DNA of 64,000 nucleotides from a virus. The stretch is taken from the IMG/VR virus record IMGVR_UViG_3300036851_000360, positions 1 through 64,000 of that record; one strand, 5' to 3'. Below are positions 3,043 through 62,169 of the stretch, piece after piece. Every line of letters starts with the position of its first letter. Position 1 is the first letter of the stretch. Both the position numbers and the translations under genes were made by a program. The notes under the pieces were generated by a model. That model was not told where the DNA came from, made no database searches, and saw only the letters and a program-made list of their open reading frames with translations.

Positions 3043-4490
3043 TGCTGACCCCTGAGGGTGCGCGTGCCCTGGTCAAGGACGAACTGTTCAAGGGCTGGGA
3101 GAAGGAGCGCGAGCACCTCGACCGGATCGACAAGTGGTTCCGGTGGGAGCAGGAACGTGTCCAGTTGCCGCGGAAGGCGACGTTGGAGCACAAGCAGCTT
3201 GCGGAGTTGGCGAAGGTTCCGTGGCTGTCGTTGATTGTGACGGCGTGCGCGCAGGCCTTGTATGTGGACGGTTACCGGTCGGAGCTGGACCAGACCGATG
3301 AGGACGAGGCCGACGGTGAGGCGTCGGCGATGTCGCGGCCGTGGCGGGCATGGCTGGCGAACGGCATGGACCGCCGCCAGACCGCGGTGCACCGGGCTGC
3401 GCTGGGCTACGGCTACTCCTTCGTGAAGGTGTTGCCGGGTGAGGACCCGCTTTCGGGGCGGGACATGTCCGTCATCCGCGGTGTCTCCCCGCGGAAGATG
3501 TACGCGTTGTGGGAGGACGCCGCGGAGGACGACTGGCCGCGGTACACGCTGCAGGTGGTCGAGTCGACCCGCAACGGCAAGCACCTGGTGAAGGTGCTCG
3601 ATGACACGGCGGAGCACACGCTCGAGGTGGACGACCACGGCGACAAGGTCACCTACCTGGGTGTGCCGCGCGTGCACGATGCGGGGGTGTGCCCGGTGGT
3701 GCGGTACGCCAACATGCTGGATCTGGAGGGGCGCAGCCCTGGCGAGATCGAGCCGCATATCCCGAACGCGGCCCGGATCAACAAGACTGCCTACGACCGG
3801 CTGTTGGTGCAGCACTTCAACTCGTGGAAGGTCCGCACGATCGCCGGCCTGCAGGAACCGGAAGCTGGCGACGACTCGGCGCTGACGAAGCTGCAGCTGC
3901 GGCAGGACGACATCTTGATCGCCGAGGACGCGGACACCAAGTTCGGCACCTTGGACGAGACCACCCTCGATGGGTTCATATCTGCTCACCGCGCTGATGT
4001 GGAGACCCTGGCCGCGGTGTCGCAAACCCCGACCCACGAGCTGACCGGGCAGATGGCCAACCTCTCCGCGGAAGCTTTGGCCGCCGCGCGGGCGAGCCTC
4101 AACCAAAAGGTGACGGAGCGGCAGAAGTCCTTTGGCGCCTCGCACTCGCAGGTGCTGCGCCTCGCTGCGGCGTTGGAGAACGACGAGACCTATGCCACGG
4201 ACCCGACCGGTCGGGTGACCTGGCAGGACATGGAGATTCGTTCCATGTCCCAGGCCGCCGACGCGCTGGGGAAGCTCGCGGAGATGTTGGGGGTGCCCCC
4301 AACAGCGCTCTGGGCGATGATCCCGGGCGTCGAGAAGACCGACGTTACCGAATGGATCAAGCTCGCCGAGCAGGGCGACCCGATCTCGAAGATGCAGCAG
4401 CAGCTTGAGCGGCAGCGCATCACCACCGAGGCCAAGGCCCGCGCTGCCGCTCAACCGGCGCGGCCAGCGAGCAATGGCGTCAACGCCTGA
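3042..4490 (+). CDS. portal protein
   Basis: Dodecameric portal at the DNA-entry vertex. The 482-residue protein follows the terminase and precedes a MuF-like gene, as usual. It shows the SPP1 gp6/actinophage portal pattern: N-terminal helical clip region, a central stem segment (INKTAYDRLLVQHFNSWK), and a C-terminal crown with SQTPTHELTGQMANLSAEAL followed by long helices. ATG 3042 overlaps the upstream stop. A longer in-frame ORF from 2925 is rejected because it would overlap the preceding gene by over 100 nt. Confidence 0.92.
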   Translation: MLTPEGARALVKDELFKGWEKEREHLDRIDKWFRWEQERVQLPRKATLEHKQLAELAKVPWLSLIVTACAQALYVDGYRSELDQTDEDEADGEASAMSRPWRAWLANGMDRRQTAVHRAALGYGYSFVKVLPGEDPLSGRDMSVIRGVSPRKMYALWEDAAEDDWPRYTLQVVESTRNGKHLVKVLDDTAEHTLEVDDHGDKVTYLGVPRVHDAGVCPVVRYANMLDLEGRSPGEIEPHIPNAARINKTAYDRLLVQHFNSWKVRTIAGLQEPEAGDDSALTKLQLRQDDILIAEDADTKFGTLDETTLDGFISAHRADVETLAAVSQTPTHELTGQMANLSAEALAAARASLNQKVTERQKSFGASHSQVLRLAAALENDETYATDPTGRVTWQDMEIRSMSQAADALGKLAEMLGVPPTALWAMIPGVEKTDVTEWIKLAEQGDPISKMQQQLERQRITTEAKARAAAQPARPASNGVNA

Positions 4491-28330: not shown

Positions 28331-29022
28331 ACCGGGCCCGGCACCGGCTGCAACTGTGGACCCGGAACCGGATGGTGATGCTCGCCGTCGCCGCCACGGC
28401 GGTGCTGTTCATCGTCGCCGCGTCAGTGTGGGCCCAGCTCGGGCAGCAGGCCGCGCAGCAGCAGACCGGGGTAGTGGAACAGCAGCGCGACCAGGCGACC
28501 GAGCAACGAGACGACGCCGCCGCGCAGGCCGTGTCCCTCGCCGAGCAGATCAAGGCGGCGTGCGGGGACGGGTCCCTGTCAGGGGCAGTGTGTGAGCAGG
28601 CGGAGCAAGTCGCTGCAACACCCGTCCCTGGACCGGTTGGACCCCAAGGCGTCCCCGGGGCGTCTGGGCAACCCGGGACAGCCGGCGAGCCCGGCGCGGC
28701 TGGACCTGCTGGACCGACCGGGACGGCTGGCGACCCGGGGGCTACTGGCCCTGCCGGGCCCGCCGGCACGGATGGCCGGGATGGTGTGGACGGCGCGGAT
28801 GGTGTCGACGGGCAGGATGGCGAGCCTGGTCCAGCTGGCCCGGCAGGTCCACAAGGACCGACTGGCGAGCCTGGAGAGGACGGCCAGGACGGCGACGACG
28901 GGCCCCAAGGCCCACCCGGTGAGCCGCCAGCCTCCTACACGATGACCATCCTTGGGATCACGTACACGTGCACCCGCACCGGCGGGGACAACACCTCGCC
29001 CACATACACCTGCTCGACCTGA
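28327..29022 (+). CDS. collagen-like membrane-anchored protein
   Basis: A 231-residue protein: basic N-terminus, transmembrane helix (about residues 16-36, [20 protein letters not shown]), coiled-coil stalk (38-80), then about 100 residues of Gly-X-Y collagen repeats (from [20 protein letters not shown] to PQGPPGEPP) and a short Cys-containing C-terminal cap (YTCTRTGG). Coupled by ATGA to the upstream gene. Collagen repeats are known in phage fibers, but an N-terminal anchor suggests it may instead be shown on the infected cell surface. Confidence 0.75.
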
Positions 29023-35250: not shown

Positions 35251-35579
35251 CGCCTCACTCGTGCGGCACCAGCGTCTTCGGCGGGTGCAGGTGTCCACTC
35301 CGCCGGCCGCTGCTCCGGGATCCGCGGCAACCCCGGGAAGTCGCCTTCCCGCGATCTGGCCCACTCGTCCCGGTCCCCGTACGGCGGGTACCGCACCTTC
35401 TGCAGCTCCGTGTACTCGCCGGGCAGTTCGTGGGTGCGGTGGTACTGGCCGCCGGCGTAGTCGTCGTAGGACTGCATCCGGTCCGAGCGGAGCTCGAGTG
35501 CCAACCGGGCGGCGACGACGAGTTCATGGTCGTGGGGGAGCTGCGACAGCTTCAGCCCCAGGTCTGCGGCGTCACTCAT
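35247..35579 (-). CDS. hypothetical protein coupled to relaxase
   Basis: A 110-residue protein whose ATG overlaps the relaxase stop (ATGA), so it is translated with it. N-terminal helix (DAADLGLKLSQLPHDHELVV) then a Tyr/Arg-rich region (YDDYAGGQYHRTHELPGEYT) and a Pro-rich tail. It may be a transfer accessory. No family recognised. Confidence 0.65.
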   Translation of the reverse strand: MSDAADLGLKLSQLPHDHELVVAARLALELRSDRMQSYDDYAGGQYHRTHELPGEYTELQKVRYPPYGDRDEWARSREGDFPGLPRIPEQRPAEWTPAPAEDAGAARVRR

Positions 35580-38500
35580 GCCCGTTCCCTCACTCGTGCC
35601 TGCTCGTCTGCCATCTCGGGTGCGGCCAGCCACCGGGTTTGCCGTTCGGCCTCTTCCTCCGCCGCCCGCATCTCGTCGGCGCGGTCACGGTCGGTGCGCT
35701 CAAGGAGGGACTCGCGGGCTCGTCTCACCGAGTCCGCCACCGCATCCGCTGCCGGCACTTCCCGCCGGATGCGTGGGTCGTGTTCCGTCGGATCCGCGAT
35801 CGCAACGTCGCGGATGTCCGCCACAGCTGTCTCGAGGGGCTTCCGCGGCACGGGCAGTTCATGGACGTGCTCGCCGACGAGATCTTCCTCGTGGATCGGG
35901 CGGCGTTCATCGTCGGCGACCCGGTCGGCTTCCTCCGCCGCCAACCACTCCGCCATCGTGGTCCGATCCTCTGGGCGGGCCAGGTCAACTTCGCGGCGCG
36001 CCAACTCCGCCTTGGCACGCTCACCCGAATCACGGGTGCCGGCGGTGTGGAGGAACCACGCGGTCCGCTCCTTGTCTGCGACCTCAAGGTTGAGCTTCAA
36101 CTGTTCGAGCTGTGCCGCTTCCTGTTCAGCCTTGACTGCCGCCTCGAGGACCCCCCGCTTCTCGTCGCCTTCGAGGGTTTCGGCGTGCGCCCGCCACAAC
36201 CCGACCTGGTTTCGACGGTCCGCCAACTGCTCGGAGGTGGCCGCGAGTTCGTCCGCGACATAGCGGGGGGCCCACAGCTGTTCCCGTTCCCATGCCGCGG
36301 CCCGGGCGAGAAGCTGCCCGTCGGACTGCATCGCCTCCTCCGGCCCGACATCCGGCAGGCCGAGAGCGTCGTGGGCGGTCGCCCAGATCGCGCGCTTCTC
36401 CGCCAGCCCTGCGGCGGGGGCAGGGCCGAGCGGGTCATGCTCGTCCGTGTACTCGGCGCCCTCCCGGGACGCGGCTGCCCAACCGGCGCGGGACTCCCAC
36501 ACCGCCCGCCGTAGCGGATCCTCCGGGACCGGCCCCAGTGTCTCCATCGCCCAGGGTGGACGTTCCTCCGCCACCCTTGCGCCGAGCTCGTGACGCCGCT
36601 CATCAGCCTTGTCGGCTTGTTTCTCAAGCCAACCGCGCCACACGTCGCTCACCCCGGCGGGGATGAGGTCCCGGTAGGAGGTGATCCGCGGGATCTGTTT
36701 CCCGAGGGTGTTGCGGATGCGGGCGTGCAGCACCTGCGCTGCTCTCTCAGCGCCAGCCAGGGACTTCCCTTCCAGCGCGTCGCGGAGCACGCCCTCGGGG
36801 TTGTGGCCAGAAACCTCCGCGTTGCGGAGGAGTCGCTCCACAGCGCTCATCGCCTGGTCCGCGGCCAGCGCCTCACGTTGTTCAGGGGTGATGACGCCTT
36901 CCGCGGCGAGCCGATCCAGGCGGGTTGAGGTCGCGCCGGCGGTGGCCTCGTTGATCCCAACGAGTAGCCGGTCGACGTTGCGGAAGGTGGACTGCTCGTC
37001 CTCGATGGCCTGCTCGCGCTGGGCGATCGCCCCCCGTTCCTCCTCGGCGTTCTTGAATGAGTCCGCGAGGACAGCCTTTGCGGTGCGACCCTCGACCTCC
37101 TGCGCTTCCCCGACGGGCGCGTCGGAGGCCAGCTGCTTGGTGGTGACCCACGCTGTGTTCGACTCCCGGCCGCGTGTCATCCCCACGTAGGTGCCGGTGA
37201 GGTCGTGCCCGGTGTCGACGGTGCGGCCCTGTGCGGCGTGCAGGGTGGAGGCGTAGGCGAGGGACAGGTGCTTCTCGACGTAGCTGGCGCTCAGAGTTAG
37301 CGCGACCCCCTTGCTGGTCTCCACCCGCAGTGCCCCGTCGGCGAGGAAATGAGTCACCCGGTACGTCTGCCGGTTGATCAACGGGAGAGGGTTACGGCCG
37401 AGGCGCCAACTGTTCTTTCGTGCCTGCACAAGGTCGCCGATCCCGGCGATGTTGCCGTCTTTGCCGAGACGTACACCGCGTTCGGACACCTTCCCCAACC
37501 GGACGAGCTCGGCCCGGAGCTGGGCGTTCACCTGGGCGGCCTGGTCGTTGCTGCGGACCAACAGCAGGGACTTTTTCCCTGCGAGGGTGTCCGCCAGCCA
37601 CGCCTGCCCTGCCTTGTGCTCGGCCTGTTCGGTTGTGCCGCAGCCACGCAACCGGCCGTGCTTGTCGTACTCGTCGAGGGCTGCGACATTCCCTTCACGC
37701 CACAGCAGCGACGCCGTGCGTTCCCACTCCTCCTGGAACCGCCACACCTGCGTCAGCTCGTAGGACCGTGCCGTGCGACGGAGATCAGCGAACACCCCAC
37801 CGGCCTCGACTGAACGCATCTGCCGTGCGTCGCCGACTGGCAGGAGTTTCGCCCCAACCTCCTCGCACCGCTGCACCAGATCGGCCATGTCCCGGGTGGA
37901 TGCCATCCCCGCCTCGTCCACCACGACCAGGTCACCGGCTCGCAGTTGTAGGGAGTCGTCGTTCTCGACCGCGAGGCGCCACCGGTCGAAGTTGAACGAC
38001 TCCACCCCCTCTTCAGCCATGACGTCGGCGGCGTTCTGCGAGGCGGCCAGCCCGAACGTGCGGCGGCCATGTTCGGCCCACGCGCCCGCGATCAGCCCGA
38101 CAGTTGTCGACTTGCCAGTACCGGCGGCAGCGGAGATGGTTTCCACGTAGGCGCCGGAGGTGAGGACGCCGCAGATCGCGGCCTCCTTGTCCGCCCCCAA
38201 CGTCTCGTCCGCCGCCTCGTTGTAGCGGCGGATGAACGCATCCACCTGCGCCTGGCTCAGCTTCGCCGCCCCAGTCCTGACAGCTGCCTGCTCAGCGATC
38301 CGCTCCTCGGCGATCTGCCCGACTGTGGCGAACTGGGCGGAACCGGGACGCTGGAACGCGGACAGATCACCGGCCAACCGGAACTCGGCTGGCAGGCCGT
38401 CAACCGACTCTTTGGCGACAACGACCTTGGCTTCGGCGAGGGCCTTGTCGGCGAGCCGCTCCAACATCGCGGGGATGTCACCGGCGGGGACACCGAGGTT

Positions 38501-39799
38501 CGCGGGGAGCGCACCCGAGATCGCGAAGATCAGATCGGAGCGGGTCCACACGTGCTCGTTTTTCCCGACTTCCCACAACGCCGCCTTGATCACCTGAGAG
38601 GGGGAGACTTCATCCGCCCGCCCTTGCCCCTTCAGCGCGAGGACGTCGTGGGCGACCTGCTCCAACCCGCCCACCATCTTCGTGCGGGCCTCACGCTCCC
38701 ACCGGTCCAACCGCTGTTCCGCGGTCTCCCCGGTGTGCGACTTCCCCTTCCTCGTCAACAGGGTGGCGCGTTCGGCGATGTACTGCCGCTCCAACGGCGA
38801 CACGGACCGGCCGTGCTGCTCCTCGTACTCGCGGATCAACTGCTCCGTCTTCGCGGTGACCGCGTGGGACCGCTTCGAAAACAGGTCCATGAGCTGCTGC
38901 GGCACACCCGCGATCTCGCGGATGATCCCGTCCTTGCGGGCGTCGCGGGTCACAAACCGGACCCCCAACGTGCGGGCGAGCTCGGCCTCCATGACCCGCT
39001 CACCCACCGCGGCGGCAGCCCACTTGTGCAGCGTCAACGCCGCCCCGTCGACCCGGCCCCACTTCCCATCAGCGCGTTCGTGAACGTTCAGGATCGCCTG
39101 GTGCACATGCAGCTGTGGATCCCGCTCCCGGGAGTCGTGCTGCAGGAACTGGGCGACGATGAACCCCTTCTGCTCCATCCAGCGACCCGCACCGGAGGAG
39201 TGGTTCCCAACCCGGGCGTACGCGTTCGCCTCGAGGTAGTCGACACTTGCCGACGCGCCAGCCATCGCTGCGCCCTCAACCGCGCTGAGCATGGCCCGCC
39301 ACGATGCCGCCTCCTGATGACGTCCTGCACCAGCGGCGACGTTCATCGCCCGCTCGAAGGCGACCGCCAGGAGGGTCACGGACTTCGGGACCGAGAAGGT
39401 GGCATCCCAGAACGCCACCGCCTGCCGCGACTCCCGCTCCGCCGCAGCCTGAAGTTCGGCTCGCCGCTCCGGGCCCGCATCGGGCTCCTTCGCGAGCGCC
39501 TCTTTGTAAATCTCGTCCGGTGACCGGTAGCGGCGGTGGGCGGGAGCCAACGCCCGCGCCTCCGCCCACATCTCCCGGTGATGGGTGGCCTCGTCGCGAG
39601 GGTCGAGCAGACGGGCGTAGATCGCCTCCATCAGATCGGAGTTGACCTCGCCCGCCAGCCCGAGAGCCTGGGCGCCCCGCCCATGCCAGCCGCCGGGCGG
39701 TTCACCCGCGGCTACGGCACCCGTGTAGTAGCCCTCCCGCCCGGTCGACACCGGTCCGGTCAGGTACCCCACCGAGTAGCCCTTGGTCACCTTGAACAC
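35576..39799 (-). CDS. traA: MobF relaxase-helicase (TraA/TrwC type)
   Basis: A 1407-residue conjugative relaxase that would nick one strand at oriT, stay bound to the 5' end and unwind it for transfer. The N-terminal TrwC domain has candidate tyrosines (Tyr8, Tyr12, Tyr24, Tyr25), the DATFSVPKSVTLL motif (about 132-144) and a histidine triad (His221 and His231/His233 in DPQLHVHQAI). The C-terminal SF1 helicase has Walker A AAAGTGKS (about 557-564), Walker B LVVVDEA (about 624-630) and late motifs STLHAAQGRTVD and YVGMTRGRESNTAW. Full length and intact. GTG 39799. Linked to a coupling ATPase upstream. Such an enzyme is unexpected in a phage genome. Confidence 0.93.
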   Translation of the reverse strand: MFKVTKGYSVGYLTGPVSTGREGYYTGAVAAGEPPGGWHGRGAQALGLAGEVNSDLMEAIYARLLDPRDEATHHREMWAEARALAPAHRRYRSPDEIYKEALAKEPDAGPERRAELQAAAERESRQAVAFWDATFSVPKSVTLLAVAFERAMNVAAGAGRHQEAASWRAMLSAVEGAAMAGASASVDYLEANAYARVGNHSSGAGRWMEQKGFIVAQFLQHDSRERDPQLHVHQAILNVHERADGKWGRVDGAALTLHKWAAAAVGERVMEAELARTLGVRFVTRDARKDGIIREIAGVPQQLMDLFSKRSHAVTAKTEQLIREYEEQHGRSVSPLERQYIAERATLLTRKGKSHTGETAEQRLDRWEREARTKMVGGLEQVAHDVLALKGQGRADEVSPSQVIKAALWEVGKNEHVWTRSDLIFAISGALPANLGVPAGDIPAMLERLADKALAEAKVVVAKESVDGLPAEFRLAGDLSAFQRPGSAQFATVGQIAEERIAEQAAVRTGAAKLSQAQVDAFIRRYNEAADETLGADKEAAICGVLTSGAYVETISAAAGTGKSTTVGLIAGAWAEHGRRTFGLAASQNAADVMAEEGVESFNFDRWRLAVENDDSLQLRAGDLVVVDEAGMASTRDMADLVQRCEEVGAKLLPVGDARQMRSVEAGGVFADLRRTARSYELTQVWRFQEEWERTASLLWREGNVAALDEYDKHGRLRGCGTTEQAEHKAGQAWLADTLAGKKSLLLVRSNDQAAQVNAQLRAELVRLGKVSERGVRLGKDGNIAGIGDLVQARKNSWRLGRNPLPLINRQTYRVTHFLADGALRVETSKGVALTLSASYVEKHLSLAYASTLHAAQGRTVDTGHDLTGTYVGMTRGRESNTAWVTTKQLASDAPVGEAQEVEGRTAKAVLADSFKNAEEERGAIAQREQAIEDEQSTFRNVDRLLVGINEATAGATSTRLDRLAAEGVITPEQREALAADQAMSAVERLLRNAEVSGHNPEGVLRDALEGKSLAGAERAAQVLHARIRNTLGKQIPRITSYRDLIPAGVSDVWRGWLEKQADKADERRHELGARVAEERPPWAMETLGPVPEDPLRRAVWESRAGWAAASREGAEYTDEHDPLGPAPAAGLAEKRAIWATAHDALGLPDVGPEEAMQSDGQLLARAAAWEREQLWAPRYVADELAATSEQLADRRNQVGLWRAHAETLEGDEKRGVLEAAVKAEQEAAQLEQLKLNLEVADKERTAWFLHTAGTRDSGERAKAELARREVDLARPEDRTTMAEWLAAEEADRVADDERRPIHEEDLVGEHVHELPVPRKPLETAVADIRDVAIADPTEHDPRIRREVPAADAVADSVRRARESLLERTDRDRADEMRAAEEEAERQTRWLAAPEMADEQARVRERA

Positions 39800-40689: not shown

Positions 40690-41370
40690 CTATGGCCTGC
40701 GGAGCTTGAGTTCTCGGTGCTTGCGTGCGTCCTCGAGCTGCTCGTCGGTAGGCGCCGGCGGGAGGCCGGTGGTGCTCCACGCTTCGGCGACCGCATGGAT
40801 GTGGCCGGCAAGCGGCGCCGCGAGGGGCTCCTTAGCTGCCTGACCTGCTGGTTTGTGGTCCTGAAGGCTGCACGACCCGAGGTGTTTGCGGACCCGCTCG
40901 ACCAGGCGCGGCATGGACTGGTCGTGCCACATGCCCTGCGCTACCGGGTCGTCCTGCGACCCGTACGCCTTCGCGTGGTACCGGCGCAGCCACAGGAGCT
41001 CTTCGATCAGCCAGGGGTGCCAGGCCCAGCAGGAGGGCAGTTCGTTCCCGGGATACCGCAGGTAGACGGCGTTCAGCCACGTCTCGAGGTCGCGCAGACG
41101 CTCGTCAAGTTTCTCGGGGTCTTCACCGACCTGCAGTAGCCACGCCCGTCCGTCGTCCTTCCCTCCTGGCGCGAGGAGGGCGACGAGGCCTTCCTCGAGG
41201 TGCCGGAAGGCCTTCCACATCCCCCGGAGTTCGTCGTCCCACCCGCGTGCGTCGCCCAGTTCCTGCAGCCGGCGGGAGTGCCGGTCGAGCTCCCGCCCGA
41301 TCGTCTGGGCGTCGAGCGGCTGGGTGGGCTCCTCGGGTGGGGGTCCTGCGGGAGGGTCAGTGGGTGGCAT
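40690..41370 (-). CDS. hypothetical transfer-associated protein
   Basis: A 226-residue protein following the coupling ATPase, overlapping it by 14 nt. The Pro-rich N-terminus is followed by a helical domain (IGRELDRHSRRLQELGDARG) and a Trp-rich core (CWAWHPWLIEELLWLRRYHA) with features like the DUF4913-type proteins of actinobacterial conjugative elements. Role unknown; operon context suggests DNA transfer. Confidence 0.7.
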   Translation of the reverse strand: MPPTDPPAGPPPEEPTQPLDAQTIGRELDRHSRRLQELGDARGWDDELRGMWKAFRHLEEGLVALLAPGGKDDGRAWLLQVGEDPEKLDERLRDLETWLNAVYLRYPGNELPSCWAWHPWLIEELLWLRRYHAKAYGSQDDPVAQGMWHDQSMPRLVERVRKHLGSCSLQDHKPAGQAAKEPLAAPLAGHIHAVAEAWSTTGLPPAPTDEQLEDARKHRELKLRRP

Positions 41371-43201
41371 TGGTCAGCTCCCGGTCGGGTGCGGCACCCA
41401 CGGGTACAGGTGTCTGTGGGTGGGTGGGTGCTGGGAGGTCGATGGGTGCGGGTGCCGGGAGCGCAACGGGGTGGGTGACCAGGTGGGTGGGAGATGGCCG
41501 GGAGAACACCCGGCGGGCACCCACACCCACGAGGCGGGTGAGAACCGATGGGTGTCGCTTCCACACGGGGATGACCCGCCCGATCACGATGGGCATGTCG
41601 CCCGTGTAGACGATGGCCTTCCACTTCGGGAGGCTCGCCAGTTGTCCCACGGACAGCACAGGCGCTTTGCGCACGGACGTGGAGGTGATGTCGCCGTCGC
41701 CGTTGCGGGTGACGACGGTTTCGTCGCGGTCGCCGGCGAGGTCGGAGAAGGCCTTCAGGCCACCGACGGCTTTGTTGCCGCCGATGTACATGAGCACGTT
41801 GGAGTTGTTGATGAGCCGCTCGGCTCCGGCCTCGCCGTACTTCGCGATCATGTCGGCGTAGGACTGGAACACCGGCATCAGCTGGATGCCGGAGCCGCCG
41901 AAGTCTCCGGACCAGTCGGGCAGCGGGACGGGGCAGACCCGGGCGGCCTCGTCGAGCGGGAACCGGATCGGCGGGTCGAGCCGCCCCCGGCACGCCCCCT
42001 CAAACGACGGCAGCGCTGCGAGACGGCGGGCTTCGCGGGCGATATACCCGGTCAGCGCTTGCAGCAGCGGAGCAGTGTTCGCCTCATGCCTGCCCAACAA
42101 ATACACGGTGCCCTTGCCGCGGATCAGTTCGGCAACGTTGAACGGGGCGGCCCCCTTGGTGGAGGCGGCCGCCGCCGGCGAGTGGAGCCACTGCAGTGCG
42201 GGCAAGATCCCGGTGGTGATGCTCGAGCGGGTGGTCGGGTTCAGGCCGATGAACTGATCGACGGCGGGCCGGAACGACGGGACCGGGGACGCCTGGAGAA
42301 GTTCATGTACCTCATCGCCGATGTGGTCGGGATTCGCGACCCAGCGGAGGATGTCGTGGCAGTCCCGGGTGCCCTCGGACAGGCCGGCGGCGTGGAGGAA
42401 CGCGGCGAACACCCGCCGGGACTGGGCATCCCAGTCCGCCGAGTCTCCGCGTACACCCTCCCGCTCGGGGATCATGTCTGCGGCCCGGTCGATCGCCACC
42501 GTGGGGTCGTCGCACCCGTGGACGGGGTCGAAGCTGATCGTGGAGTCGACTTCACCCACCCAGGCCGGGTTGTACACCCAGATGGGACCCGTCTTCGCCC
42601 GCAGCTCCCGGGTCTGGTCGTAGAGGTCGGTGCGGGTGGAGGTGGTGACTACGGCCCCGGGGGCGTCGATGACGGGGGTTCCGAGGAGGGCGGTCTTGCC
42701 TCGGCGGGGGCCCGCGACGATGAGTACGACGTCTTCGGCCGAAGCCCACACCCGCATCCCGGCCGCCCGACACAGCAGCACACCCAGCTCCCGGGTGGGT
42801 GTGCGCCACCGCTTCACCCACCCGGCATCCCGTAGGTGCGGGCGGACAGCGCGGGCCTTGCGGTGCATCGCCCACCAGGAGGTGCCGCGGGCGACCTGTA
42901 AGGGGGTGGCGACGCCCGAGCGCCGGCGGGCCTTCTCGCCCCACCGGGTGACGGTGCGGGCCGTCCCGCCGCGCCACCACACCACCCCCGCCACGCAGGC
43001 GACGCCTGCAATGGTGAGGACACCGGCGAGGGTGAGAGCCCCATGGCTCATGTACAGCCACGCGGAGACGCCGACACCGCCGCCGATGCCGACCTTGCGG
43101 GAACTGCCGGCCAGACCGCGCTTGAGCTTGCGGATCCAGTCGCCCACGAAGATGGCGGCGGCCACACCTGCGGTGACGAGGACGACGAACTCGGCGGTCA
43201 C
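41357..43201 (-). CDS. type IV coupling protein (VirD4/TraG-like ATPase)
   Basis: A 614-residue inner-membrane ATPase that would bring the relaxase-DNA complex to the transfer channel. Two N-terminal membrane segments (about residues 2-21 and 44-75) precede the motor domain with Walker A AGPRRGKTALLG (164-170) and Walker B RFPLDEAARV (415-420), plus TGILPALQWL and NNSNVLMYIGG motifs usual in TraG/VirD4 proteins. It is not an FtsK/TraB-type translocase. The C-terminal 60 residues are Pro/Thr-rich. GTG 43201 overlaps the upstream stop (GTGA); the longer ORF to 43282 is rejected. Confidence 0.9.
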   Translation of the reverse strand: MTAEFVVLVTAGVAAAIFVGDWIRKLKRGLAGSSRKVGIGGGVGVSAWLYMSHGALTLAGVLTIAGVACVAGVVWWRGGTARTVTRWGEKARRRSGVATPLQVARGTSWWAMHRKARAVRPHLRDAGWVKRWRTPTRELGVLLCRAAGMRVWASAEDVVLIVAGPRRGKTALLGTPVIDAPGAVVTTSTRTDLYDQTRELRAKTGPIWVYNPAWVGEVDSTISFDPVHGCDDPTVAIDRAADMIPEREGVRGDSADWDAQSRRVFAAFLHAAGLSEGTRDCHDILRWVANPDHIGDEVHELLQASPVPSFRPAVDQFIGLNPTTRSSITTGILPALQWLHSPAAAASTKGAAPFNVAELIRGKGTVYLLGRHEANTAPLLQALTGYIAREARRLAALPSFEGACRGRLDPPIRFPLDEAARVCPVPLPDWSGDFGGSGIQLMPVFQSYADMIAKYGEAGAERLINNSNVLMYIGGNKAVGGLKAFSDLAGDRDETVVTRNGDGDITSTSVRKAPVLSVGQLASLPKWKAIVYTGDMPIVIGRVIPVWKRHPSVLTRLVGVGARRVFSRPSPTHLVTHPVALPAPAPIDLPAPTHPQTPVPVGAAPDRELTNATH

Positions 43202-47467: not shown

Positions 47468-48955
47468 GTGTCCGACTCGTACAGGCCGAGGCCGCGCGCA
47501 GGGCAGTACCTGCGCGTCAGCCTGGACCGCTCCGGCCGTGCCCGGTCCGTCGACGAACAGCAAGTTGACAACGAGCGGGCCGCCGGCGAGCACGGATGGG
47601 AGATCGTCGCCAACTACGCCGACCCCAACCGGTCCGCAAGCCGATACGCAACGAAGCTGCGGGAGAACTACCTGCGCCTGCTCGAGGACATCCGCAAGCG
47701 CGAGCTTGACGTCCTGATCATTTGGGAGCCGTCGCGCGGATCCCGCAAGGTGTCGGAGTGGGTGGAGCTCATCGAGGTCGCCGAGACAGCGGCGGTCAAG
47801 TTCCACGTCACGTCCCACGGACGTACCTACGACCCTGCGAGGCCACGTGACCGGCGCTCTCTCCTCGAGGATGCTGTCGACTCTGAGTATGAGTCGGGGA
47901 AGAACTCGGAGAGGGTGAAACGCTCGACCGCTGCCTCGGCCGAGGCAGGCCGCCCGTTCGGGTCGATCCCCTTTGGGTACCGGCGGGAGTACGAGGCTGG
48001 GTCGACCAGCCCGACCGCACAGGTCCCCGACCCTGAGACAGCCCCTGTCGTCCAGGAGATTGTCGCCCGCATCCTGGCGGGCGACCCGCTGCACCGGATC
48101 GCGATGGATTTGAACCGACGGGGTGTGTTGACACCGCAGATGGTCCGCGACCGCCGTCTCGGGCGTGAGGGTGTGCGCCGGGGTGGCTGGAACAACCCGA
48201 AGATTCGGAAGTTGTTGTCGTCGCCGACGATGGCGGGGTGGCGGGTTCATCAGGGCGAGGTGTTCGGCCCGGCGATGTGGAAGCCGCTCGTCGCTCCGGC
48301 GGACCACGCGGCCGCGCTGGCGATCATCAACGATCCGAGCCGGCGGACGCAGCGGGGGACGGAGCCGAAGTTCCTGCTGTCGGGGATCGCGGAGTGTGGG
48401 GTGTGCGGCGGCTGGTTGCGCCGCTTTCCCAACCGTGGGCACCAGTCGTACGGCTGCGCGGGACGGAACAACCAGAACGACGGACATGTGGTGCGCCGCG
48501 CGGAGCATCTCGACGCGATGGTGGTGAAACGTGTCGTGGAGCGTCTGCGGGACCCGGGCCTGGCGGAGGGGCTGGCGCGGCGGAGAGCAGCGGCGGATGA
48601 GTCCGCTGCGGAGGCGGCGCGGGAGCTGGCGGCTCTGCACAGGCAGCTCGCCGACTACGAGGTGAAGGCGCAGCAGGGCGGCGTGTTGGCGGCCTCGTTC
48701 GAGCGGGTCGCGCTGGGAATCGCTCAGCAGATCGAGGCCGCGCGGGCGCGTCTGGTGACGTCGGCGGTTGTCCCAGCGGGCGTACTGGATTTGGCCGGCC
48801 CGGATGCCGCCGTACGGTGGGCGGCCATCCAGGACGACATTGTGAAGCAGCGTCTCATTGTGCGTTCGCTCGTGCAGGTGATTGTGCATCGGTCGAATGC
48901 GCCGCGTGGGTCGCGGGTGTTTGACGAGTCGTCGGTCGAGATCGTGGATCGTTAG
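47468..48955 (+). CDS. int: large serine integrase
   Basis: A 495-residue serine recombinase that joins phage and host attachment sites. The catalytic domain has Ser18 in QYLRVSLDRSG with SVDEQQ downstream and the conserved Arg-rich EPSRGSRK. The recombinase domain (about 160-290) is followed by a zinc ribbon (CGVCGGWL ... YGCAG) and a coiled coil (about 375-430) that normally controls direction. GTG 47468. Intact and probably active; it replaces the broken tyrosine recombinase next door. No obvious recombination directionality factor is recognised. Confidence 0.93.
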   Translation: MSDSYRPRPRAGQYLRVSLDRSGRARSVDEQQVDNERAAGEHGWEIVANYADPNRSASRYATKLRENYLRLLEDIRKRELDVLIIWEPSRGSRKVSEWVELIEVAETAAVKFHVTSHGRTYDPARPRDRRSLLEDAVDSEYESGKNSERVKRSTAASAEAGRPFGSIPFGYRREYEAGSTSPTAQVPDPETAPVVQEIVARILAGDPLHRIAMDLNRRGVLTPQMVRDRRLGREGVRRGGWNNPKIRKLLSSPTMAGWRVHQGEVFGPAMWKPLVAPADHAAALAIINDPSRRTQRGTEPKFLLSGIAECGVCGGWLRRFPNRGHQSYGCAGRNNQNDGHVVRRAEHLDAMVVKRVVERLRDPGLAEGLARRRAAADESAAEAARELAALHRQLADYEVKAQQGGVLAASFERVALGIAQQIEAARARLVTSAVVPAGVLDLAGPDAAVRWAAIQDDIVKQRLIVRSLVQVIVHRSNAPRGSRVFDESSVEIVDR

Positions 48956-58288: not shown

Positions 58289-58879
58289 ATGACGCCGAGG
58301 AAGTCCGGCATCCCCACTGAGTATTCCGGGACCACGTTCCGGTCCCGTCTCGAGGCCCGGTGGGCCCGATTTTTCGACGGCATCGGCTGGAACTGGGAGT
58401 ACGAACCGTTCGACGCGGACGGCTACATTCCCGATTTCCTCATCCTCGGCCGCTCCTCTCTCCTCATCGAGATCAAGCCCTACGGCGACCTGAGGATGCT
58501 TGTCGAGGAGGCTGATCGGGTCCGGCCCCTCGTTGGGCTCGGCTGGTCCGGGCACTTCGCGGTGTTCGGTGTCAACCCACTCCTCGACCTGAACGGCTCG
58601 ATGGGGCGTCCTGGACCAGGGGTCTATGTGACCGGCGGATCCGACTGGGGATCACCCGCAAGCGAGTCCGCGCTCGGTTGGACCGACTGTGGCTATGTCA
58701 CGAACTACGGCAGCCACGGGCAGGAATGCGGTGCCATGTCCGTGTTCCACCAGACGGACAGCTACCAGGCGATCCCATGCGGCCACGCAGATGGGGACCA
58801 CCACCTCGGCGAACCTCAACTCAGCTACATCAACACCATCTGGACCGCCGGACGCGACGCGACGAAGTGGTCGGCGTGA
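58289..58879 (+). CDS. PD-(D/E)XK endonuclease
   Basis: A 196-residue nuclease with a TnsA/VSR-like core: FRSRLEARWARFFDGIGWNW, then YIPDFLIL ... LLIEIKPYG (Asp, then Glu-x-Lys). The C-terminal half has Cys/His residues (GHGQEC-like stretch, CGHADGDHH) that may bind metal. It overlaps the primase-helicase start (GTGA). Probably a DNA-end or flap nuclease in replication or recombination. Confidence 0.8.
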   Translation: MTPRKSGIPTEYSGTTFRSRLEARWARFFDGIGWNWEYEPFDADGYIPDFLILGRSSLLIEIKPYGDLRMLVEEADRVRPLVGLGWSGHFAVFGVNPLLDLNGSMGRPGPGVYVTGGSDWGSPASESALGWTDCGYVTNYGSHGQECGAMSVFHQTDSYQAIPCGHADGDHHLGEPQLSYINTIWTAGRDATKWSA

Positions 58880-61416
58880 CGAGCGCAGACACCACCTACG
58901 ACGGGGCCCTCGCCTGGTGGGACGCGGGCTGCAGCGTCGTCCGCGTCGCCCTCGACGGCACCAAGCGCCCCGACGGCGTCTGGAAGCAGTACCAGCGCGA
59001 ACGCGCCGACCGCGACACCATCCACCGATGGTTCACCGCCGGCCACTCCGGCGTCGGCATCGTCTGCGGCGCCGTGTCCGGCAACCTCGAAATGCTTGAG
59101 CTCGAGGGCCGCGCCATCACCGAGGGCGTCCTGCAGCAGATGGTCGCCGCGTGTGACCAGCTCGGCGTCGGCGACCTGTGGCGCACCCTCACCACCACCT
59201 GCGCAGAAGCCAGCCCCTCCGGCGGCCTCCACGTCTTCTACCGCGTCCCCGACGGCGTCGCCGGCAACACCAAGCTCGCGCAACGCCTCGCCCACGACGA
59301 CGAGTACACCGCCGAGGAACACGAACTCGCAGCCAAGGGCAAGACCATCGTCCGCGGCCTCATCGAAACCCGCGGCGAAGGCGGCTTCGTCGTCGTCGCC
59401 CCCAGCCACAGCACCGTCCACCCCACCGGCAAGCCCTACACCTTCATCGCCGGCAACCCCGCCACGATCCCCACCATCACCGGGGAACAGCGCGACCTCC
59501 TGCACATCGCCGCCCGAACCTGCGACCAGCTCCCGGCACCCGCAGCCATCCCCGAACCCGTCATCCTCGAGCAGCGCCGCACCGACGGAGGCACCAGCCC
59601 CGGCGACGACTACAACACCCGCGGCTCCTGGGCCGAACTGCTCACCGAACACGGATGGACCCGAGTGTGGGGCGACCACACCCGCACCTACTGGCGCCGC
59701 CCCGGCAAGAACTTCGGCATCTCCGCCGTCACCGGCGGCACCGAAGGTGACTACTTCTACTCCTGGACAACCTCCAGCGTGCTCCCCGCCGAAGAGGCCA
59801 TGTCGAAGTGGCGGGTGTACGCCGTCCTCGAACACGCAGGCGACTTCCACGCCGCAGCCAAGACACTCAAGAGCCGCGGCTACGGGCAGGCCCCACCGCC
59901 GCCCACCCGGCCCGTACTCACCACCGTCCCCATGGGCAGCAGCACCCACACCAACGGCAGCAGCGCCCTCGCCCCGCAGGTTGCAGAACAGGCCTCAAAT
60001 AATATTCCGGCCGACGCCACCCTCGAACGTTCCGACGACGGCAACGCCCTCGCCCTCGTCGACCAGTACGGCACCCGCATCCGGTACTGCCCCGAACGCG
60101 GCCGCTGGCTGCACTGGACCGGGAACCGGTGGGAATGGTGCCCCTCCGGCGGCGGTGTCGTCCGTGAGTACGCCAAGCACATCGCCCGCAGCCTCCCCGA
60201 CGACGACAACGCGGCGATGAAGCACAAGCAGCGCAGCCTCGGCGCCATAGGCACCACGGCCATGCTCATCCAGGCCGCCACCGACCAACGTGTCGTCGTC
60301 GCACTCGACGAGCTCGATGCCCGCCCCTACGAGCTCAACACCCCCGTCGGGATCGTCGACCTTCGCACCGGCGACACCAGCCCTGCCGACCCCACCCACC
60401 TGCACACCCGCATCACTAAAGCCGCACCCGACGCGGACGCAGACCCCAGCAGGTGGCTCACCTTCCTCGCAGACACCTTCGAAGGCCACCAAGAGCTGCC
60501 CGCCTACATGCAGCGCCTCGTCGGCTACTCCGTCACCGGTGTCGTCCGCGACCACGTGCTGCCGTTCCTGTTCGGCGCCGGCGCCAACGGCAAGGGCGTG
60601 TTCCTCGAGACCATGCGTGCCGTCCTCGGCGACTACGCCACGACCGCGCCGTCCGGGTTCCTGATGGCGAAAAACTACGCCGGCCACGAAACCGAGATCG
60701 CCCGTCTCGCCGGAGCGCGCATGGTCGTCTGCTCCGAAATCAACGAAGGCGACCGGTTCGACGAAGCCAAGGTCAAGCAGCTCACCGGCGGAGACGCGCT
60801 GACCGCACGGTTCATGCGGCAAGACCACTTCACGTTCACCCCGACCCACAAGCTGTGGCTGATGGGCAACCACCAGCCCTCCGTCACCTCCGGCGGCCAC
60901 TCGTTCTGGCGGCGGCTGCGGATCGTGCCATTCGTCAACACTGTGCCCGAGGAGAAGCGGGTCGACGACCTGCAGGGAATCCTCGCCACCCAGCACGGCG
61001 GCGCCATCCTGCACTGGATCGTCACCGGCGCTGCGGCCTACTTCACCGACGGTCTCCAGGAACCCGAGTCGGTGCGCGCCGCAACCGAGGAATACGCCAA
61101 CGAGCAGGACACGGTGGCTCGGTTCGTCGCGGACCGATGCCACCTCGGGCCCCGCGAACATCTGCGGATGAAGGTCGGGACCTTGCGGGCGGCCTACGAG
61201 GCATGGTGCTCCGACGAGGGCGACCCAGCGGTGAAACCACGCACGTTCGGCCTGACCCTGCGCACCCGGTTCGGAGTGGAGGCGACCCGGACGAATCGGG
61301 ACCGCTTCTACACCGGCATCGCCCTGCTCGCGGAGCGTGACGAAGAGGAGGGTGACCGGCCCGACGATGCGTCACCCGCACCTGAGAGGCGGGACCTGGC
61401 GTGGGGCCTCGGGTGA
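58876..61416 (+). CDS. bifunctional primase-polymerase / SF3 helicase
   Basis: The 846-residue replication protein. The N-terminal prim-pol domain (about 1-190) shows GVGIVCGAVSGNLEMLELEG, where the usual Asp-x-Asp is Glu-x-Glu, and SPSGGLHVFYR. The C-terminal half is a D5_N/P4-type superfamily 3 helicase with Walker A FGAGANGKGVF (about 564-574), MVVCSEINEG, and KLWLMGNHQP sensor. Together these prime and unwind DNA at an origin, probably the repeat region just downstream. GTG 58876 overlaps the nuclease stop. Likely sufficient, with host polymerase, for phage or plasmid-like replication. Confidence 0.9.
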   Translation: MTSADTTYDGALAWWDAGCSVVRVALDGTKRPDGVWKQYQRERADRDTIHRWFTAGHSGVGIVCGAVSGNLEMLELEGRAITEGVLQQMVAACDQLGVGDLWRTLTTTCAEASPSGGLHVFYRVPDGVAGNTKLAQRLAHDDEYTAEEHELAAKGKTIVRGLIETRGEGGFVVVAPSHSTVHPTGKPYTFIAGNPATIPTITGEQRDLLHIAARTCDQLPAPAAIPEPVILEQRRTDGGTSPGDDYNTRGSWAELLTEHGWTRVWGDHTRTYWRRPGKNFGISAVTGGTEGDYFYSWTTSSVLPAEEAMSKWRVYAVLEHAGDFHAAAKTLKSRGYGQAPPPPTRPVLTTVPMGSSTHTNGSSALAPQVAEQASNNIPADATLERSDDGNALALVDQYGTRIRYCPERGRWLHWTGNRWEWCPSGGGVVREYAKHIARSLPDDDNAAMKHKQRSLGAIGTTAMLIQAATDQRVVVALDELDARPYELNTPVGIVDLRTGDTSPADPTHLHTRITKAAPDADADPSRWLTFLADTFEGHQELPAYMQRLVGYSVTGVVRDHVLPFLFGAGANGKGVFLETMRAVLGDYATTAPSGFLMAKNYAGHETEIARLAGARMVVCSEINEGDRFDEAKVKQLTGGDALTARFMRQDHFTFTPTHKLWLMGNHQPSVTSGGHSFWRRLRIVPFVNTVPEEKRVDDLQGILATQHGGAILHWIVTGAAAYFTDGLQEPESVRAATEEYANEQDTVARFVADRCHLGPREHLRMKVGTLRAAYEAWCSDEGDPAVKPRTFGLTLRTRFGVEATRTNRDRFYTGIALLAERDEEEGDRPDDASPAPERRDLAWGLG

Positions 61417-61433
61417 CGGATCAGGCGCTTCAA

Positions 61434-61714
61434 TGCGTCACCCCTCGGGGTGACAGAGGTGACGCATCGTTTCAAGATCACGCCGTCGCTTCATGGAGTG
61501 ATCTACGAATCATCCGTCACCAGCGTCATCGAACAGACTGCCCACAGGCCCGGGTGACGCAAGTGACGCAACTTCTGACTTATCAGAGCCGTAGGAATTT
61601 CGGTGACACAGGTGACGCATCGTTTCAAGATCACCCCTCGCGCATGCGCGCAAGGACCCTGATAAGGGAAGTTGCGTCACCTGTGTCACCCCGTCACCGA
61701 GACGAGGTGACACA
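61434..61714. other. candidate replication origin (iteron-like repeats)
   Basis: GTGACGCA or its complement occurs at 61434, 61459, 61554, 61563, 61612 and 61673, and GTGACACA at 61603, 61682 and 61707. A 33-bp direct repeat with one mismatch lies at 61449-61481 and 61602-61634. A larger inverted repeat pairs 61553-61586 with 61659-61690. Between its arms lie a locally A/T-richer stretch and the palindrome CGCGCATGCGCG. It contains no gene and directly follows the primase-helicase, the usual origin position. Confidence 0.75.
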
Positions 61715-61716
61715 CA

Positions 61717-62169
61717 GTGGTCGCTAACTCGCGACACCTCGTCACCACCACCCCACGACGAACCACCTGCCACCGATGCAAACGCATCGTCCTCGAAGGC
61801 ACCGAGATGGGCGCCCCCTACTGCGTCGACGCCATCCCCCTCAACCTCCCCGGCGAACTCGATGCGCGCCTCAACGGCCGCAACACCTACCGAATCCTCG
61901 CCGGCCGGATCGCCCTCCGCGAACCCGACGACATCGCCGCCGACACCCGCAAAGGACGCCCCCCCGTCTGCGCCACACACAGCTGCGCGCCCATCAACCC
62001 GGCGCACATCGACCCCAACCACGTCGCCACCTTCGCCACCTTGATCGCCGAGACACCCAAACAGACACCAGACGAGACAAACGAGCAACACACCATGTTC
62101 GTCCTCAGCGGCGAGCTCCGCGGAACACGCCTCATCGCAGTCACCGACACCGACCGCCCACCCTTTTAA
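61717..62169 (+). CDS. Cys-containing hypothetical protein
   Basis: A 150-residue protein with an N-terminal zinc-like pair ([14 protein letters not shown]) and later CATHSC, then a Thr/Asp-rich stretch and a C-terminal strand region. GTG 61717 starts at the edge of the repeat region. Function unknown; the place suggests a link to replication. Confidence 0.65.

Follow-up and report, generated by a model that had tools for sequence, protein, structure and literature searches.

A probable iteron-type replication origin 3' of a prim-pol/SF3 helicase gene in a tailed phage, and its counterparts in related phages

Introduction

What is the function of a dense cluster of short repeats that lies directly 3' of a gene for a prim-pol/SF3 helicase in a tailed-phage genome, and which protein would read it? 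A sequence-only reading of this DNA had proposed an iteron-type replication origin at 61434-61714 and had taken its design as plasmid-like, supporting replication as a circular episome and fitting the conjugation genes. Iterons 3' of a self-loading SF3 helicase are already known. The Rep protein of SaPIs and PICIs uses its C-terminal domain to bind iterons directly 3' of its own gene, and pri-rep-ori segments are able to replicate when cloned (PMC7581432; PMC6092414); SaPI origins have been described as recruiting two head-to-head hexamers, like SV40 T antigen (PMC9894130). Here, we examine the anatomy of the repeat cluster, its conservation among relatives of the helicase, and the relationship between the repeats and the protein encoded upstream.

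Results

The window, i.e., the whole stretch of DNA analysed, comprises positions 1 to 64,000 of an IMG/VR record of 72,180 bases, which has no end repeats and encodes a tailed-phage gene set including the terminase large subunit, portal, major head protein, and tape measure. A serine integrase is encoded at 47468-48955, while a search of the record, which at 72 kb may be incomplete, returned no AAA_31 or ParB_N match for ParA or ParB. In this tailed temperate phage, a reverse-strand block carries genes for a TrwC (MobF-type) relaxase-helicase (35576-39799) and a TraG/TraD-like coupling protein (41357-43201); an unsystematic look at the other genes noticed none for type IV secretion.

The presumed initiator, a prim-pol/SF3 (D5_N) helicase of 846 residues, is encoded on the plus strand at 58876-61416 (the gene caller preferred a start at 58867), with Pfam Prim-Pol (PF09250), D5_N, and DUF5906 domains and matches to PHROG primases. 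As had been read from the sequence, this gene ends just before the repeats, its stop codon ending at 61416, 17 nt before 61434. The gene that follows the repeats (61717-62169, plus strand) belongs to phrog_10480 and encodes a CxxC motif near the N-terminus; its product is possibly an accessory replication protein. Genes of this type often occupy the same place in relatives: tblastn located 17 loci, and in most of them the gene starts 210-320 nt past the helicase stop.

The DNA between the two genes is A/T-richer than its surroundings, as had been claimed for part of it: the GC content of 61417-61716 is 57%, a value equaled or undercut in only 0.24% of 300-nt windows. A 108-amino-acid open reading frame (61401-61727) spans the locus, and BLASTP aligned its translation to the counterpart in the nearest relative with 55% identity. 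However, substitutions relative to that relative are distributed evenly over the codon positions (0.30/0.31/0.31), and the GC3 of this frame is 0.53, compared to 0.88 and 0.82 in the flanking genes. Because the substitutions are codon-blind and GC3 is low, a protein-coding reading was rejected, and the 55% identity reflects conserved DNA repeats. The region 61434-61714 is therefore non-coding, in agreement with the description of a region without genes.

The octamer GTGACRCA occurs 12 times in the 64 kb, with 10 copies within 61368-61714 and exactly nine, the number first counted, within 61434-61714. When variants are included, the count is 16 GTGAC sites; this array starts at about 61351, still within the helicase gene, and ends at about 61746, within the gene that follows. 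Thus, the location originally given holds, but the extent of about 280 bp does not, since the array runs into both genes. The density of GTGAC/GTCAC peaks here at 13 per 330 nt, with a next best value of 6 in the window. The best canonical 7-mer has 9 copies in 350 nt at the locus, compared to a maximum of 7 copies in 200 simulated 64-kb sequences and a maximum of 7 elsewhere in the window, the latter stemming from a GGGTG-rich stretch. The array exceeds chance. The GGGTG-rich stretch itself (41360-41524) is of low complexity, ranks next to the array among the repeat clusters of the window, and occupies the 3' end of the gene for the coupling protein.

From left to right, the array begins with iteron GGTGACGCAT on the minus strand inside the helicase reading frame (61367-61376), GGTGACGGAT on the plus strand overlapping the helicase stop codon (61412-61421), and a further GGTGACGCAT on the minus strand (61433-61442), all three of them identical in the nearest relative. 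These are followed on the plus strand by the left tandem pair GGTGACAGA GGTGACGCA (61449-61467; 9-bp spacing, two differences in the relative) and the first copy of a non-iteron word, TTTCAAGATCAC (61470-61481), and on the minus strand by GGTGACGGAT (61512-61521), the latter two being kept in the relative. A large inverted repeat then extends over 61552-61691, with arms at 61552-61586 and 61657-61691. The outer tandem pair GGTGACGCA AGTGACGCA stands at 61553-61571 on the plus strand with 9-bp spacing and is followed by ACTTCTGACTTATCA; this whole word is kept in the relative. The inner tandem pair GGTGACACA GGTGACGCA (61602-61620, plus strand, 9-bp spacing) faces an alternating purine-pyrimidine (RY) core, CGCGCATGCGCGCA, at 61639-61652, with the second copy of TTTCAAGATCAC (61623-61634, plus strand) between them; from the other side, the core is faced by the right tandem pair, inverted, which reads GGTGACACA GGTGACGCA on the minus strand (61672-61690). 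The facing pairs enclose a loop whose centre is 0.5 nt away from the core's, and the interval 61620-61672, centred on CGCGCATGCGCGCA, has 57% GC compared to 68% for the genome. To the right are a variant iteron GGTGACGGGG on the minus strand (61689-61698), GGTGACACAC on the plus strand just before the next gene (61706-61715), and a variant GGTGACGAGG on the minus strand inside that gene (61737-61746), which is kept in the relative.

Tandem pairs thus start 9 bases apart at 61449/61458, 61553/61562, and 61602/61611 on the plus strand and at 61672/61681 on the minus strand. The left and right modules are linked by a direct repeat (61449-61484 and 61602-61637), which had been reported as 33 bp; the repeat is real, although it measures 36 nt at 94% identity. 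Within the inverted repeat, which had been correctly described as surrounding a palindrome (located inside CGCGCATGCGCGCA), 61602-61619 and 61673-61690 form a perfect inverted repeat of 18 bases, 100% complementary, across a 53-base interval; a second inverted repeat pairs 61552-61575 with 61668-61691 at 92%, and 61552-61586 likewise has a minus-strand match within this region. The single strand of the locus folds far better than shuffled sequences (z = -5.8), and no Rfam family matched at the locus. A search for sigma-70-like promoters and terminators found none at the locus, although actinobacterial promoters may be missed by it.

The nearest relative is a prophage in Pseudonocardia asaccharolytica (L029/L109), whose helicase is 77% identical and whose array can be aligned with that of the window. 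The blocks kept between them are the iterons, the two TTTCAAGATCAC copies, ACTTCTGACTTATCA, and the alternating core. TTTCAAGATCAC has only two copies in the window, each after an iteron pair, and AAGATCA is moderately enriched among relatives (15 loci compared to 4.6 expected); a second factor may therefore bind at TTTCAAGATCAC, and we speculate that its two copies are candidate sites for a second protein.

Relatives of the helicase were gathered from viral contigs, bacterial genomes, and phage records, and 107 dereplicated loci were kept. Many of them have facing repeats directly 3' of the helicase gene, with letters that differ between phages (CAGTGAC, ATGACGC, AGTGCCCG, GTGGCGC, TGACGG, TGACAAA, and others); the arms are mostly tandem repeats, most commonly spaced by 9 bases. 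Arms with a score of at least 12 that enclose an RY tract of at least 12 were found in 49 of the 107 loci and in none of 1,203 background windows, although the loci, being related, are not independent trials; the other 58 loci lack the feature by this strict definition. RY runs of at least 18 occur in 44/107 loci but in 0/5,417 background windows, and none is present in 90 kb of other non-coding DNA of the same loci. The centre of the tract follows that of the loop with a standard deviation of 5.9 nt, compared to a random expectation of 13 (the offset is -0.5 nt in the present window). Clustering at 70% helicase identity gave 64 clusters, 32 of them with the arms-plus-core feature, and the hosts concerned span several orders of Actinomycetota and of Pseudomonadota. 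The same origin type is present at prophage-like loci in long chromosomal contigs and in lytically isolated Arthrobacter phages; a cultured phage of Arthrobacter globiformis, Karkharias, shows this anatomy 3' of its gene 58.

The plan is not uniform among relatives. Several, in a mycobacteriophage group, have iterons without the RY core. In three relatives from low-GC hosts, besides the Lacticaseibacillus phage compared below, the DNA 3' of the gene is AT-rich, and clear iterons may or may not be present in it. No comparable array was found 3' of the gene in BPP-1, Vash, Crewmate, Armstrong, phiSASD1, or a Streptomyces plasmid, and relatives of the Streptomyces-plasmid type likewise lack an array; in BPP-1, only an inverted pair of 9 bp enclosing a loop of 52 nt was seen after the gene. 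In TM4-like mycobacteriophages, TGGACGGATTGGACAGAT forms facing arms without an alternating core. These arms, which in Mycobacterium phage ZoeJ are at 3280-3510 (L196), stand inside the next annotated gene or just past the start of it and are likely an origin; the excerpt of the cluster K paper that deals with TM4-like phages names no origin.

The alternation of the core, rather than its palindromy, is the conserved feature. Tracts scored 9.16 for palindromy compared to 8.72 for shuffled alternating tracts, with 29 of 57 loci above; a cruciform or palindrome was thus rejected as the conserved element, since its palindromy is not beyond what alternation yields. The palindrome that was first emphasised looks like a by-product. 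Base composition was likewise rejected as the cause of the tracts, because their GC content correlates weakly with that of the genome (r = 0.2), tracts being present in 54% GC genomes too, and because they are absent from other non-coding DNA. The core has a strand polarity: CA steps exceed TG steps on the helicase-sense strand in 41 loci compared to 9 with the opposite bias, an excess whose p value is optimistic because the loci are related. A GTG priming site in the core, as for pRN1 ORF904, was also considered; the tract in the window contains neither GTG nor CAC, and GTG priming is therefore no general rule. Elsewhere in the window, a 15-nt alternating tract, CACGTACACGTGCAC (28959-28973), lies inside a coding block near 28.3-29.0 kb, with no iterons seen around it.

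We compared iteron letters with the helicase sequences, using automatic iteron calls whose orientation is ambiguous. Iteron identity tracks the C-terminal winged helix, not the motor core: in partial Mantel tests, the association of iterons with the winged helix given the core was r = 0.197 (0/2,000 permutations), while that with the core given the winged helix was r = 0.000. In a scan along the protein, the association peaks at residues 790-816, a segment that in the structure model covers the wing and the last part of the third helix. All seven loci with GTGGC iterons (L022, L041, L044, L045, L054, L116, and L126; C-terminus plus downstream 400 nt) encode a KGx[KR]G wing, which is found at none of the other loci. 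Iteron and wing change together about four times on the tree, which gives four pairs and a sign test p of 0.125, a test unable to reach significance with so few changes. The GTGGC iteron and KGx[KR]G wing are thus a candidate DNA-recognition code. A second rule, pairing AGTG[AC]C iterons with an SNG wing, was dropped, as it was mostly confined to one clade and independent pairs gave no support.

In the AlphaFold model, the C-terminal winged helix, the presumed origin-binding domain, covers residues 746-818 (61111-61329, plus strand), with a helix at 788-799 and the wing at 802-817. When compared by VIA-align, the predicted domain resembles the origin-binding domain of P4 (1ka8; Z 8.3, rmsd 2.3, 75 aligned residues, 24% identity), although RFX DNA-binding domains outrank 1ka8 and Foldseek alone gave no match for this domain at E ≤ 0.001; a fold match of this kind is by itself no demonstration of function. 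RFX reads DNA largely via its wing, which would fit the association of wing and iterons. The whole-protein model (pTM only 0.48) resembles the D5-like helicases ASFV PrimPol and MPXV E5, and E5 has also been solved as a head-to-head double hexamer.

Discussion

The analysis establishes the repeats and their conservation among relatives, in a position exclusive to them, as well as the centred core, the lack of coding in the region, and a statistical association of the iterons with the C-terminal domain. On this basis, the region 61367-61746 is probably where DNA replication of the phage starts and where the prim-pol/SF3 helicase from the gene immediately upstream binds, a reading to which we give a probability of about 0.82. 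The iteron-type origin of the sequence-only reading is supported by the anatomy in relatives, the co-variation of iterons with the C-terminal domain, and the fold of that domain. In the mechanism that we propose, the C-terminal winged helix would read the 9-bp-spaced iterons with the core GGTGACRCA, and the facing pairs at 61602-61620 and 61672-61690 would set two hexamers head to head; the placement of two rings follows the analogy with SaPI/PICI, SV40 T antigen, and MPXV E5. Further sites may be offered by the outer pair (61553-61571) and by a second, partly degenerate left module (61433-61521). The duplex would first be distorted or opened at the core (61639-61652), upon which the prim-pol domain would prime. 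On comparison of these sequences, the alternating tract in GC-rich genomes may replace AT-rich DNA in its role, perhaps via easy torsional distortion. More tentatively, and with less than even odds in our estimation, the RY tract could be a torsion-driven switch (B-to-Z or equivalent) between opposed hexamers, with the wing code allowing every phage to evolve a private iteron and, with it, a replicon identity of its own.

Several other explanations of the array were weighed. An operator array, at which the helicase itself or a different phage regulator would bind to repress either the helicase operon or the gene after it while the origin lies elsewhere, would suit sites that sit between two co-directional genes and enter both coding ends, and initiators of iteron plasmids often autoregulate through their iterons. 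Nevertheless, we consider it unlikely, because an operator has no need for facing arrays or a centred RY tract, yet those are conserved, because the array lies 3' of the helicase gene and not at its promoter, and because the locus yielded no sigma-70-like promoter or terminator in a search that may miss actinobacterial ones. A stem-loop origin like that of pRN1 or BPP-1, in which an extruded hairpin rather than the iteron sequence is recognised, would account for the folding of the strand noted above, and for proteins with AEP, SF3, and winged-helix domains, assembly at a stem-loop located 3' of the encoding gene has been proposed (PMC4234260). Against this, the arms are built of tandem iterons that change in sequence together with the winged helix, iteron copies are found outside the stem too, and the RY tracts are no more palindromic than shuffled ones, which together make hairpin recognition quite improbable.

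The conjugation genes invite two further readings. The array might be the maintenance origin of a low-copy circular episomal, conjugating prophage, as iterons and the genes for the MobF-type relaxase-helicase and TraG/TraD-like coupling protein would suggest, but the serine integrase, the failure to find ParA/ParB, and the chromosomal setting of related loci argue against it. Moreover, TrwC was found in only 1 of 20 searched records, namely the present one, and is absent in the 19 others with related helicases; the origin is therefore not associated with conjugation genes, contrary to the fit originally proposed. A plasmid-type origin is thus very unlikely, and the earlier view of a plasmid-like circular episome is not borne out, although an episomal plasmid state of the phage is conceivable. 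That the repeats are the transfer origin (oriT) of the relaxase is hardly credible: inverted repeats are common at oriTs and a TrwC relaxase is indeed encoded, but its gene lies 22 kb off in an oppositely oriented block, relatives without TrwC show the same anatomy, and the iterons track the helicase C-terminal domain. An origin for phage replication is the best reading because of the integrase, the lack of ParA/ParB matches, the chromosomal and lytic-phage relatives, and the absence of the relaxase elsewhere, and it would serve lytic or induced replication, not plasmid maintenance. GC skew, the check that had been suggested for the origin, has no sign change at the locus and is negative on both sides, and this check therefore gives no support.

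The closest known counterparts are the origins of PICIs and SaPIs, such as SaPIbov1 and EcCICFT073. As in these elements, the array is immediately 3' of the initiator gene and has two iteron sets in opposite orientation; their initiator binds by its C-terminal domain, and the primase is sometimes fused to it (PMC6092414; PMC7581432). Unlike the array described here, with its alternating CG/CA tract in a 57% GC interval, their iteron sets always flank an AT-rich region, and they are helper-dependent satellites, whereas the present record is a full tailed phage with terminase, portal, capsid, and tape measure genes. P4 alpha is likewise a multifunctional primase-helicase whose C-terminal winged helix binds origin repeats, in keeping with the match to 1ka8, but its primase is of the Toprim type (PMC4234260) and not an AEP prim-pol (PF09250). 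pRN1 ORF904 and BPP-1 share the combination of AEP, SF3, and winged helix in one protein, and an essential cis element no more than about 170 bp beyond the 3' end of the gene; in pRN1, this is a 100-bp stem-loop without iterons (PMC4234260), whereas here a stem is possible but iterons are present. Cch2 of SCCmec, a D5_N-type helicase with a putative origin, has an isolated C-terminal domain that binds downstream direct repeats, but there are only three 5-nt iterons, and the primase is a separate protein (PMC7581432). Extrachromosomal mycobacterial prophages carry parABS in place of an integration cassette (PMC7157519); in contrast to such prophages and to RepA-type plasmids, the present record has a serine integrase and no parABS was found in it. 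Lacticaseibacillus phage R24.1 (OP869849), a low-GC Firmicutes phage with the same iteron family (L190, 3145-3400), has GTGACGGATG iterons in facing arrays within a 263-nt gap after its primase-helicase gene, but its core is AT-rich (AGTTAAAAAGTATATATAG...) rather than a CG/CA tract.

Our searches of open-licence PMC papers turned up no account of such an origin in actinophages. As far as this literature search reaches, the occurrence of this origin type across ordinary tailed phages with GC-rich hosts is new, as are the alternating tract in place of an AT-rich centre and the link between wing and iterons. With these findings, the putative origin of a wide range of actinobacterial and proteobacterial phages can be defined at the sequence level, and most of an origin plan that had been described as peculiar to phage satellites (PMC6092414) is shared by these ordinary tailed phages. 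The findings also provide a testable rule relating the helicase wing to the iteron letters, and they raise the physical question of whether alternating purine-pyrimidine DNA can substitute for an AT-rich melting zone in GC-rich genomes.

One further observation concerns the major head protein of the phage (6482-7696, plus strand). Residues 1-237 match head families, while residues from about 285 to 397 match tail-protein families; this second match region is perhaps a shared decoration (Ig-like) domain.
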